A stretch of DNA of 64,000 bases from contig QEVF01000008.1 in assembly GCA_003576915.1 (NCBI GenBank), forward strand, positions 62,001-126,000. Reading direction: 5' to 3'. Below the pieces are notes generated by a model. That model saw nothing but the letters and a program-made list of their open reading frames with translations. It ran no database searches and was not told the DNA's origin. A program made the position numbers and the translations under genes. Positions 35,098-39,559 of this stretch are shown one piece after another; position 1 is the first letter of the stretch; every line of letters starts with the position of its first letter. The stretch is from Planctomycetota bacterium. Lineage in GTDB: Bacteria; Planctomycetota; UBA8742; UBA2392.

Positions 35098-36654
35098 ATG
35101 CGTGTTGCCGCGCTCTGCCTGCTGGCCGGTCTGCTTGCCTCTTCGGCGGCGGCCCACCCATTTGACGACCGGGCGGACATGATCACGCACATCGCGGTCA
35201 CCGCTGACCGCAAGCTGAACGTGACCGTGCTCTATTACTTCGCCACGGTGCCTGCCTCCTATGTCGAGGCGCGCTTCAAGCTCGACGCTGACCGCAACGA
35301 CAAGATCACCTCCGAGGAGCGCGACAAGCGTCTGGCCGAACTGGCCCAGGAGCGGCTGGACAACATGGACATGAGCGTCCATGGCCGGCGTGTCCGGCTG
35401 GTCAACGACGCGCGGCGCAACGAGTGCTTCGACCTCAACAATCCGGAGAACGACTTTGCCGCGCCCGGCGGCTTTTCAGTCGTGAACGTGCGCCTGGGCT
35501 ATGCCCTGAACTTCACGGCGGATCTGGCCATGGAGCCTGAGCAGGGCGGCTATCGCGTGCTGCTGACCTTCATGAACAAGGCCGAGCGCATTGATGACCC
35601 GGACAGCCAGATCCGCGCCTTCGATGAACGGGTGCAGCCCCGCGTGGTGATTGAGAACCTTCGCCATGAGCGCTCCGACGGCGGTTTGTTCCAGGTTCGT
35701 TTCTCCTACGGTGTGGCGTCGCAGCCGCCGCCCAGCGAACCTCCCGCCGTGCAGCCGCAGCCGCCGGCTCCCCAGACAGCCCGTCAGCAGCTCGAGGCCA
35801 TGGAGGAGCGCCCGCGCGAGGACAAGAACCGGGAAGGGTTCTTTCAGGAGCTGTTTTCGGCCCTGCGCTCGGGCGAGGGCGACTTCATCTACTGGTTCAC
35901 CGCGCTGGCCTTCGTCTTTGGCTGGGGCGCCTGGCACGCCCTCCAGCCCGGCCACGGCAAGACTCTCGTGGCCAGTTACCTGATCGGGACCCACGGCCGG
36001 CCCTCCGATGCCCTGTTTCTGGGCGTGGTGGTGACGCTGGCGCACACCAGCGGAGTGCTGCTGCTGCTGGGCGGCATCACGCTCGTGCGCGAGCTCTACC
36101 CGGAGATGTTCGCCGACCCGACCAAGGCATTGAGCGAGTGGATCACGGTGGCGGTAGGGGCCACAATCCTTTTCATGGGCGTGGGCTTGCTGCTCAAGCG
36201 CGCAAACGCCGGACACGCCCACGAACATGACGTTTTCGGCCGCCACGTTCACCCCGAGGACGATCACGACCATGGAACGCCGCCGGACCCCAAACGCATG
36301 GGCCGTCTGGAGATCCTCCGGCTTGGCATCCTGGGGGGTGTCGTGCCCTGCCCGGCGGCCTTCGTGATCGCCTTGATTTCCATAGAGCAGAGGTTGTTCG
36401 CGGCGGGCCTGCTGCTGGTGCTGGTCTTCAGCCTCGGGCTGGCCCTGGTGCTGGCCACCATCGGCCTGATGCTGGTGGCGACCAAGAGCTACATGCATGC
36501 GCGTCGCAACAAGCCGAGAAACGCCCTCTACCGTTTCATGGAAACGAAAGTGCCGGTGCTGGGCGCTCTGGCCATCACACTGATCGGCTTTACCATGGTG
36601 CTGATGGCCCTGTTGCGGCTGCAGGTACTGGACCTGGCCACGTTTACGGCTTGA
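35098..36654 (+). CDS. NicO-family nickel/cobalt exporter with periplasmic N-terminal domain
   Basis: A 518-residue membrane transporter. A signal peptide (MRVAALCLLAGLLASSAAA) and a roughly 200-residue periplasmic domain with an EF-hand-like LDADRNDKITSEE lead to a proline-rich linker, then six or more membrane helices. NicO/RcnA motifs are HALQPGHGKTLVASYLIG and VTLAHTSGV. A cytosolic or loop segment of about residues 375-400 is rich in His and Asp (HAHEHDVFGRHVHPEDDHDHG, about 21 residues of metal-binding type). It should export Ni(II) or Co(II). The gene lies 28 bases before the thioredoxin-like gene and may be cotranscribed with it. Confidence 0.85.
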   Translation: MRVAALCLLAGLLASSAAAHPFDDRADMITHIAVTADRKLNVTVLYYFATVPASYVEARFKLDADRNDKITSEERDKRLAELAQERLDNMDMSVHGRRVRLVNDARRNECFDLNNPENDFAAPGGFSVVNVRLGYALNFTADLAMEPEQGGYRVLLTFMNKAERIDDPDSQIRAFDERVQPRVVIENLRHERSDGGLFQVRFSYGVASQPPPSEPPAVQPQPPAPQTARQQLEAMEERPREDKNREGFFQELFSALRSGEGDFIYWFTALAFVFGWGAWHALQPGHGKTLVASYLIGTHGRPSDALFLGVVVTLAHTSGVLLLLGGITLVRELYPEMFADPTKALSEWITVAVGATILFMGVGLLLKRANAGHAHEHDVFGRHVHPEDDHDHGTPPDPKRMGRLEILRLGILGGVVPCPAAFVIALISIEQRLFAAGLLLVLVFSLGLALVLATIGLMLVATKSYMHARRNKPRNALYRFMETKVPVLGALAITLIGFTMVLMALLRLQVLDLATFTA

Positions 36655-36681
36655 GAATGTTTACGGTTCAAGGAGGATCGC

Positions 36682-37941
36682 ATGAAACGATGGACCCTGT
36701 TCGCGCTGACCCTGTCGCTTCTGGGCGGCGCTGTCACTGTGATGCCGGTAAGGGCGGACGAAGCGCCCAGGGCGGCCGAGGCGCCCAAAATGGATGAGGG
36801 CCACGCCGCGGCCATCAAGGCCTACGAGCGCTACCAGGCTGTCCAGAAAACCTCAAGCGCGGCACGGGCCGAGGCCTTGAAGGTCTATCGCGAGGCCAAG
36901 GGCGAAGAGGCCCAGAAGGTGGCCCTGGAGAAGTACCAGGCCGTGGTGGAAGAGCAGAACGCCAGGGTGGAGGCCGCCCGGGACGAGTTCGTCTCGGCCT
37001 TCGACAAGGCGAATCTGGACGCTTGGGACCTCAAGGCACACGCGGAAGTGGTGGAGATGGGCCTGTTGATGTCCGGGAGCCTCAAACAGGAATCGGACCC
37101 GAAGGGGGCCGTTCACTGCTACGAGAAGCTGCTTGAGAAACTTCCCAAGAGCCGCCTGGCGGGCGTGGTGCGCAGCAACTACCTGCCTGCCGCCCTGATG
37201 ATGACGGGCGACTACGAGGCTGCCCAGGTCCGTGTCGAGGCCCTGGTGAAGGAAGGCGACGAAATGCAGAGGCCCGGCCTGACGACCACGCTGGGCGACA
37301 TCAAGGCCGTGAAGGGCGACCTTGAAGGGGCACAAAAAACCTACGCCGAGGCCCTCAAGCTGATTCCGGCCGATCTGGAGAAGAACGATGTCCGCGCCAG
37401 CGCCAAGCGCTACCTCGAGCCCAGGATTGCCCTGATCGGGAAGCCCGCGCCGGAAATCAACAGCAAGCACTGGCTGGGCGCCGAAGCCACGGCCCTTTCG
37501 GCCATGAAAGGCACCGTGCTGCTGATTGACGTCTGGGCGACGTGGTGAGGCCCCTGCAAGTCAGGCATGCCGGGATTGCATGCCCTCCACAACAAGCTGT
37601 CGAAGGACGGTTTCTCGGTGCTTGGTGTAACGAAGTACTTCGACAGGGGATCGCTGCCGGGCGAAAGCGGCGACATGAAGGCCCGCCTGTCCAAGACGAC
37701 CTCGGTCAAGGACATGGACGAAAAGGACTTCGGCGAGCATCTCAAGACCTTCCATGAGCGGGTCCAGCCCAGCTATCCCTTCGTCGTGGCCAGCAAGGAA
37801 GAGCTCGACGCCTACAAGGTGCCGGGCTACCCCACCCTTTTCGTGGTCAACCGGCAGGGGATCATTGTCTATCTGCAGGTGGGAGGCGGCCGCGAGGCCA
37901 TTCTCGAGGCCGTCATCCGGCGCCAGCTTCAGGAGAAGTAG
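36682..37941 (+). CDS. TlpA/ResA-like thioredoxin-fold protein, probable selenoprotein (in-frame UGA = Sec289)
   Basis: Read through one TGA at 37546-37548, this is a 419-residue exported protein. AGGAGG is five bases before the ATG; a signal peptide (MKRWTLFALTLSLLGGAVTV) and a helical TPR-like domain (about 25-240) precede a thioredoxin domain. The redox motif reads D-V-W-A-T-W, then TGA, then G-P-C-K, so TGA stands exactly where the first Cys of WCxxC belongs. Thereafter the domain continues intact in the same frame: GMPGLHALHNKL, the cis-Pro loop GYPTLFVVNRQG and the terminal helix. Without readthrough the first 288 residues would lack any active site. A hairpin with bacterial SECIS spacing follows (37564-37584). 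A TGY-to-TGA nonsense mutation or sequence error is the alternative. Confidence 0.8.
37564..37584 (+). promoter_or_regulatory. Candidate bacterial SECIS hairpin
   Basis: GGCATGC and GCATGCC form a perfect 7-bp stem with the seven-base loop CGGGATT. The loop begins 22 bases after the UGA, within the 16-37 bases typical of bacterial SECIS elements, and has G at its second position. It lies inside the coding sequence, as expected. Confidence 0.6.
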
Positions 37942-37953
37942 TTTTCACGCCGA

Positions 37954-37981
37954 CGAGGCGGCGCCCGCGGGCGCCGCCTCG
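37954..37981. terminator. Terminator after the thioredoxin-like gene
   Basis: CGAGGCGGCGCCCG and CGGGCGCCGCCTCG form a perfect 28-base palindrome 12 bases after the stop, followed by CTGTTTT. It lies seven bases before the convergent gene's stop and probably serves both. Confidence 0.75.
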
Positions 37982-37987
37982 CTGTTT

Positions 37988-39136
37988 TCAGGCGTTCACG
38001 TTCACGCGGTCGTACAGCGGGTCCCAGCTCGCGATGCGCCCCTGCACGGCGAAGTTGTCGCCGCGACGCAGGCTGGAAAGCTCGCGGCTTTTCGCGGCAT
38101 CAAAGCGCACGGCCACCTTGGTGCGCAACCCGCTGAGGATGCCCACAACCGTGCGGCCATCCTTGAGTTCATCGGGAACGTCAAAGCTGCTGGTCAGCTC
38201 CACCCGCTCCACCACGATGGGCAGGGTTACGCTCTGGTCCTTGAGCCTTGCCAGGGCCTCGTCACGCTCGCTGCCGAGCAATGAAGCATCCGACAACCGG
38301 TCCAGCACGGCCATGACGCCGCCGTCGCCGCGCGGTGTGTTGTCGGGCTTTGGTCCGGGCAGGTTCGTCAAGGGCGCGGCCACCTTGGCGGGCCTGGCCG
38401 CGGGTCTGGGCTGCGGCCGCAAAGCGGGCGCCGCCACGGGCAGCTCAACGGGTTTGGGGGGCGCGGGCGGCACCTTCACGGGCGCGGCCTGGGGCGCAAG
38501 CTGCTGCATGGTATCGGTGATGGCTCGGGCCAGCAGCACGGCCTCGGAGATGGCGGAGTACATGCGCGCGGGATCGCTGACCATGCCGCGCTGCTCCATC
38601 AAGATGTTGCCGGCGTAGAGAACGAATTCCGGCCGCGTCTGCACGATGCGGAAAAGGGCTTGGCGGATGGCGGGCTGGCTGACGAAGTGGCGCACGGCGT
38701 TTTCATCGCGCCCCTTGAGGATGAAGGCGTCGTCGATGGCCTGGTCTCCGACGTGAATATCCTGCCCGCCGAAGAACTTGCCGACTTTGCTGAACACGTT
38801 CTCCTGGTGGATCTGCAGGCCCAGGGGCATGGGGCAGTTGAGCATGGCCTGGAACTGGGTGTAGGTGCTGCGGTTCTTGCCCGAGCCGCGGGTGATGGTG
38901 CCGATGTGGACGTAGATGCCGTCAAACCAGCCGGAGATGTGGGGCCGCGAGGTCCAGCTTTCGCCGCCGGTCATCTGCAGGCCATAGGTGGCGGCAAAGC
39001 GGGCCCAGTTTTCGCGAGCCTTCTGGCTCTGGTAAATGCCCAGTGCCGCAAGACCCACGAACAGGGCGATGAACAGCGGGAAGATGATGAGGGGCGCAAA
39101 GTCCGCCGCGAGAAAGATGCAGAGCATGGGTGTCAT
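37988..39136 (-). CDS. Membrane-anchored protein with duplicated C-terminal domain, function unknown
   Basis: A 382-residue protein. Residues about 12-34 form a membrane anchor (FAPLIIFPLFIALFVGLAAL); residues 40-205 are a soluble domain (WARFAATYGLQMTGGESW; PEFVLYAGNILMEQRG); 205-265 is a Pro/Ala-rich linker; the last 110 residues form a compact domain ending ASWDPLYDRVNVNA. That last domain matches the whole of the neighbouring 137-residue protein (39146-39559): both show GRT-x-x-GI-x-x-G, K-x-AVR, RG-x-x-F-x-V-x-G and WDPL. I do not recognise the family. The three genes aat, 137-residue and this one read the same way with small gaps. Confidence 0.7.
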   Translation of the reverse strand: MTPMLCIFLAADFAPLIIFPLFIALFVGLAALGIYQSQKARENWARFAATYGLQMTGGESWTSRPHISGWFDGIYVHIGTITRGSGKNRSTYTQFQAMLNCPMPLGLQIHQENVFSKVGKFFGGQDIHVGDQAIDDAFILKGRDENAVRHFVSQPAIRQALFRIVQTRPEFVLYAGNILMEQRGMVSDPARMYSAISEAVLLARAITDTMQQLAPQAAPVKVPPAPPKPVELPVAAPALRPQPRPAARPAKVAAPLTNLPGPKPDNTPRGDGGVMAVLDRLSDASLLGSERDEALARLKDQSVTLPIVVERVELTSSFDVPDELKDGRTVVGILSGLRTKVAVRFDAAKSRELSSLRRGDNFAVQGRIASWDPLYDRVNVNA

Positions 39137-39145
39137 GGCTGGTTC

Positions 39146-39559
39146 TCAGTCCGACTCGACGATCAGCCGTTCAAAGAGCGGGTCCCATCCGGCCACCTTG
39201 CCGTGGACCTTGATGAACAGCCCCCGCGTGAACGACTCGACCTCCGCGTTGCGGGATTCCGGGTAGCGCACGGCGATTTTCAGCTTGCTGCCTTCCACGA
39301 TGCCGATGAGTGTGCGCCCGCCGCGCAGAGCCTCGGCCATCTCGTGCCCGCCGGCCGTCTGCTCCACGCGCTCGATGTTCACGGGCGCGGCGACAGCCTT
39401 GCCCAGAAGCATGGCCAGCAGCTTGTCGCGCTGTGCCAGGCTCGTGGCCGGGTCCACCAGCCGCGCAACCAGCGTTCCCATGGCCGCCTCCGAACGCGTG
39501 GGGGGCAGGGCGCTTTGGGGTTTGGTCTTCGAATGGGGCGCGTGCTTTCGTGTGGCCAT
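39146..39559 (-). CDS. Small protein paralogous to the C-terminal domain of its neighbour
   Basis: A 137-residue soluble protein with a basic, disordered N-terminus (MATRKHAPHSKTKPQ), then a domain also found at the end of the adjacent 382-residue protein. Shared pattern: an initial helix pair (LVARLVDPATSLAQRDKLLA), a strand ending in VERVE, GRTLIGIVEG, KIAVRYPES, FIKVHGKVAGWDPLFERL. The strand-rich order suggests a small beta barrel of OB type; this is inference. It begins 40 bases after the aat stop and ends 10 bases before the next gene. Confidence 0.7.
   Translation of the reverse strand: MATRKHAPHSKTKPQSALPPTRSEAAMGTLVARLVDPATSLAQRDKLLAMLLGKAVAAPVNIERVEQTAGGHEMAEALRGGRTLIGIVEGSKLKIAVRYPESRNAEVESFTRGLFIKVHGKVAGWDPLFERLIVESD

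Follow-up and report, generated by a model that had tools for sequence, protein, structure and literature searches.

Selenoproteins with a UxxC motif have already been listed within the Redoxin family (PF08534) and among thiol-disulfide isomerase-like proteins (cd02966) (PMC13188914), and reviews also list Prx-like and TlpA-like UxxC selenoproteins. For the bacterial SECIS element (bSECIS), the published limits are a stem of 4–16 bp, a loop of 3–9 nt with a G in its first two positions, a distance of 16–37 nt between the UGA and the loop, and a folding energy of ≤ −7.5 kcal/mol (PMC13188914). The initial annotation of the locus described here implied that a selenoprotein of this kind is a rarity, a view not supported by the reviews, in which thioredoxin-like UxxC selenoproteins are both known and frequent.

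The locus is situated within a 64,000-nt stretch of a Planctomycetota genome (contig QEVF01000008.1, positions 62,001–126,000; referred to as the window). Analysis of its nucleotide sequence indicates that region 36682–37941 very probably encodes a thioredoxin-like, presumably exported selenoprotein, in which selenocysteine (Sec289) would be inserted at an internal UGA codon in a SelB-dependent manner. As far as sequence data can tell, this reading is well supported with respect to (i) the frame, (ii) the equivalence of TGA and Cys codons, (iii) selection past the TGA, (iv) the presence of sel genes and (v) conservation of the hairpin.

Reading frame, domain structure and genetic context

The location of the identified features is summarized in Table 1. 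The only interruption of the frame is TGA 37546–37548. As claimed in the initial annotation, 130 codons continue past this triplet to TAG 37939–37941, and the codon bias is kept: the GC content by codon position is 0.67/0.42/0.84 before and 0.62/0.38/0.85 after the TGA, with GC3 values of 0.844 and 0.846, respectively. The TGA does replace the first Cys of WATW-C-GPC (residue 289 of 419; surrounding motif LIDVWATW-U-GPCK), and the thioredoxin landmarks, i.e. the terminal helix and the VPGYPT loop, whose P384 is the candidate cis-Pro, are encoded 3′ of it. The proposed ribosome-binding site was also recognized (AAGGAG is found at the equivalent place in L101 and L102), and a terminator scan placed the terminator behind the second half only, with none detected in the 130-codon segment that follows the TGA. 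Standard annotation would end the gene at the TGA, with loss of the active site.

Table 1. Location of features of the predicted selenoprotein locus (window coordinates).
Feature	Position	Strand	Remarks
NicO/RcnA-type nickel-cobalt transporter gene	35098..36654	+	Upstream, 27 nt before ATG 36682; PF03824, E=1.8e-10
Shine-Dalgarno AGGAGG	36671..36676	+	5 nt 5′ of ATG; read directly
Selenoprotein gene, predicted	36682..37941	+	ATG 36682; 419 residues with Sec289; TAG stop 37939–37941
Probable signal peptide (MKRWTLFALTLSLLGGAVTVMPVRA)	36682..36756	+	Inferred from translation by eye: basic start, hydrophobic core, A-x-A-like end
N-terminal charged helical/TPR-like region, residues 26–248	36757..37425	+	Helical character by eye; conserved in relatives
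Redoxin/TlpA-ResA-like thioredoxin domain, residues 252–411	37435..37914	+	Pfam, solved structures, curated models
UGA codon, predicted to be read as Sec289, first position of UxxC	37546..37548	+	Translation and homologue alignment
Cys292, putative resolving residue of U-G-P-C	37555..37557	+	Invariant among Sec and Cys homologues
bSECIS-like hairpin	37564..37584	+	GGCAUGC-CGGGAUU-GCAUGCC: perfect 7-bp stem, 7-nt loop, G at loop position 2
Pro384, candidate cis-Pro of thioredoxin fold (VPGYPT)	37831..37833	+	Inferred by family comparison
Intrinsic terminator after full-length gene	37954..37981	+	12 pairs, then CTGTTTTC; terminator scan

The thioredoxin-like domain, which contains both the UxxC motif (WATWUGPC) and the Pro loop (VPGYPT), passes the curated Pfam cut-offs for Redoxin (PF08534, both halves joined: residues 253–411, E=3e-12, 47 bits, cut-off 26.6) and AhpC-TSA (PF00578: E=1.5e-11, 44.7 bits, cut-off 26). 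Among solved structures (e.g. 1jfu, 1st9 and 1kng) and curated models, those of the ResA, TlpA and DsbE types come closest to it. The NCBIfam equivalog/subfamily cut-offs for TlpA, ResA and DsbE were not reached (47–48 bits vs. 123–230), nor was the cut-off of 300 for NF041054 (33.3 bits). Within the N-terminal region, a Pfam TPR_14 match at residues 202–232 remained below the cut-off (22.2 vs. 23.5 bits).

The upstream transporter gene ends at a true TGA stop, and its match to NF007454 (E=1.2e-23) is below the cut-off. It is likely to be co-transcribed with the selenoprotein gene. The order of this gene pair and of two downstream genes is kept in the two congeners, G001 and G002, and a functional link between the transporter and the selenoprotein is suggested. 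Two minus-strand ORFs present in region 37988–39559 of the window (382 and 137 residues) have a homologous C-terminal segment (about 34–39% identity); neither has an NCBIfam match and the 382-residue ORF has none in Pfam. Their synteny with the selenoprotein gene is kept in the genus.

Homologues and selection past the TGA

A homologue search covered 149 related genomes, and 16 homologues (query included) were aligned. The codon at the Sec289 position is TGA in 5 of them (query included), TGC or TGT in 10 and AGC in 1; the question posed in the initial annotation, whether Cys or UGA occupies codon 37546–37548, is thus answered in the affirmative for 15 of the 16. Trp occurs at this position in no homologue aligned. 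The full-length TGA-bearing relatives comprise two congeners (89% and 61% identity) together with G006 and G015 of the same family, to which two genomes with TGC/TGT homologues (G003 and G004) also belong. A scan of the genome contig collection gave distant thioredoxin-domain matches only, mainly in Bacteroidota. PF07596, tried as a marker of the phylum, had no match in 7 genomes and was uninformative.

Comparison of the query genome (G000) with G002 yielded Ka/Ks ratios of 0.16 before and 0.10 after the TGA; the corresponding values for G001, whose synonymous sites are near saturation, were 0.32 and 0.21. Third codon positions account for most substitutions past the TGA, 43 of 60 in the first comparison and 55 of 98 in the second. 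Judged by these substitution patterns, the codons following the TGA are under purifying selection, i.e. they are translated.

These results bear on the possibility that the locus is a pseudogene or the product of a sequencing error, in which case the TGA would stem from decay or misreading of a Cys codon, and what follows it would be dead or mis-assembled. A single base change suffices to convert TGC into TGA, and the homologue in G006 (L103, G006:C202) contains an extra in-frame TAG further upstream, within the part encoding the N-terminal region, which may reflect an error, decay or a start codon located beyond it. However, the codon bias is unchanged and purifying selection acts downstream of the TGA, and four other species, each assembled independently, have the same TGA (the two congeners and two other relatives; 38–89% identity to the query), which also contradicts the misreading of TGC or TGT considered in the initial annotation. 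Since selected translation past the TGA is seen in independent assemblies, sequencing error and decay are effectively excluded, and we regard this explanation as very improbable.

Equally little credence can be given to two separate genes, encoding proteins of 288 and 124 residues, the latter starting from ATG 37567. Both ORFs exist mechanically, but this ATG sits within the hairpin and lacks an evident Shine-Dalgarno sequence, the split would break the WATWxGPC motif, and the Cys-containing relatives are one continuous protein.

The homologue tree requires three changes of the TGA state, at least two of which are forced by well-supported branches. Therefore, the gain or loss of Sec at residue 289 seems to have occurred repeatedly. 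Within a single family of genomes this residue can be Sec, Cys or Ser, a well-supported Sec/Cys exchange series in which the gain and loss of Sec can be studied.

Several related genes deviate from the common pattern. A second gene of G001 (L193 834–1982, G001:C34; 383 residues, 35% identity) has, by eye, Ser in place of Sec (WASYSAPC), and L115 (G013:C55) has an AGC (Ser) codon at the active-site position; both are paralogues that may have lost the redox site. In G015 (L198/L106, G015:C84), the reading frame of the Sec-thioredoxin protein extends without a break through another copy of the N-terminal region, which is truncated at the contig end; this is possibly a tandem fusion.

Selenocysteine machinery and the bSECIS-like hairpin

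The source genome is a draft (87% complete), and the sel genes on which the initial annotation depended were all found in it: tRNA-Sec (selC) with anticodon TCA (UCA) (73.7 bits vs. a gathering score of 47), selA (548.6 bits; 0.7 kb from tRNA-Sec), selB (312.1 bits) and selD (385.8 bits). A genome-wide reassignment of TGA (e.g. to Trp) or low-level readthrough by an ordinary tRNA, which would fit a frame that is open once TGA counts as a residue, is extremely improbable, given the homologues with Cys rather than Trp at residue 289, the use of TGA as the stop of 10 among 19 long ORFs of the window that were treated as genes, and the presence of this dedicated tRNA-Sec.

The selD gene (L017 1531–1533 region, G000:C56) is itself a selenoprotein gene, with an in-frame TGA at the catalytic position (HGAGUGCK). 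The genome contains five sites with the WUGPC pattern, four of them, including the query, in plausible thioredoxin-like frames. The three additional loci (L160, L161 and L163; G000:C8, C16 and C47) are probable UGPC thioredoxin-like selenoprotein genes, and L163 has a 7-bp hairpin qualifying as a bSECIS. The remaining site (L162, G000:C43) was rejected as a chance match, lying in a short frame outside any thioredoxin context. Across the family, 45 WUGPC matches were detected in 16 genomes, compared to 1 for the reversed control. The mean number of sites was 1.62 in selA-positive and 0.68 in selA-negative relatives (controls: 0.29 and 0.27); this contrast is real but not sharp, since a selA gene may escape detection in draft genomes and chance accounts for some of the sites.

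A second group of genes in the phylum, with the motif WGxWUGPC (L136, L140, L151, L152, L158 and L159), has a near-identical hairpin (CACGAGCGGTCGCTCGTG) 24 nt past the UGA; in one case (G141:C42) two UGA genes lie side by side. Many UGPC thioredoxin-like genes of this sort, whose SECIS hairpins could be put to the test, occur in the phylum as sampled here.

The hairpin of the query falls within every published bSECIS limit: its stem starts 15 nt and its loop 22 nt after the UGA, and its energy is −10.2 kcal/mol. The perfect 7-bp stem and the loop G reported in the initial annotation were confirmed, but the distance of 22 bases given there is that to the loop. The 55 nt after the UGA, for which a competing fold exists, fold as a whole no better than shuffled sequences (z +1.45), so the signal is the local hairpin and not overall stability.

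All 21 bases of the hairpin are identical in G000, G001 and G002, even though G000 and G001 disagree at 55 of the 130 third codon positions beyond the TGA. Its codons include the minor ones GGA (9%) and TTG (6%), and an equally good hairpin arose in 3.6% of 2000 random synonymous recodings based on local codon usage. A different hairpin, also qualifying, is present in G006 (−10.6 kcal/mol). In G015 there is just a stem with a bulge, and this fails the strict bulge-free bSECIS filter. Qualifying hairpins were found in 26 of the 52 UGA genes of the phylum (50% vs. 7% expected) and in none of the 17 Cys genes that share the motif (0% vs. 2% expected). This count draws on related genes, includes hairpins common to several of them, applies one genome's codon usage throughout, and covers two UGA frames (L146 and L169) that are perhaps not real genes. 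The Cys homologue L105 has a hairpin too (−7.7 kcal/mol), and therefore a hairpin alone is not diagnostic of Sec.

Proposed mechanism and relation to known selenoproteins

For this protein, Sec insertion itself and export are predictions, and any redox direction, partner or substrate would be putative. With the ribosome at the UGA, SelB carrying Sec-tRNA(UCA) would bind the hairpin, Sec289 would be inserted and translation would continue to the TAG; without selenium, translation would stop at residue 288, giving a product without the active site. By analogy, the mature protein is probably a periplasmic TlpA/ResA-type thiol-disulfide oxidoreductase, in which the Sec289 selenolate would act as the nucleophile attacking a substrate disulfide and Cys292 would resolve the mixed intermediate.

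It is conceivable, though rather doubtful, that this gene and its relatives form a lineage-specific group of uncurated exported selenoproteins, which combine a helical/TPR-like scaffold with a Sec-thioredoxin, in some cases (G015) as a tandem. Within the genus they would be coupled to the NicO-type nickel/cobalt exporter. If so, they might serve, for example, in the reduction of metal-binding thiols or in the relief of metal-induced disulfide stress.

Among the known proteins, the UxxC selenoproteins of the Redoxin (PF08534) and cd02966 groups are of the same domain type by Pfam and have the same UxxC with Sec first; in this comparison, made by motif and domain, the query may differ from them in its long N-terminal helical/TPR-like region. 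The Prx-like thiol:disulfide oxidoreductase selenoprotein (PF00578, e.g. of Geobacter) is similar in its AhpC-TSA match and UxxC, but the nearest structures and models of the query are ResA, TlpA and DsbE rather than peroxiredoxins. TlpA, ResA and DsbE (CcmG) themselves resemble the query in the WATWCGPC-type site, the Pro loop and probable export (NCBIfam E about 1e-12), and differ in that the query has Sec for the first Cys and the extra N-terminal region; since every score falls well short of the NCBIfam cut-offs, the query is an equivalog of none of these proteins. NF041054, a ResA-like WAxxUGC selenoprotein, is likewise a ResA-like selenoprotein, but its motif is UGC and that of the query UGPC. 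The gene passes no NCBIfam cut-off and is thus uncurated there. By motif and domain, the predicted protein belongs to the known UxxC Redoxin/TlpA-like selenoproteins, of which it is an uncurated member rather than a new system.
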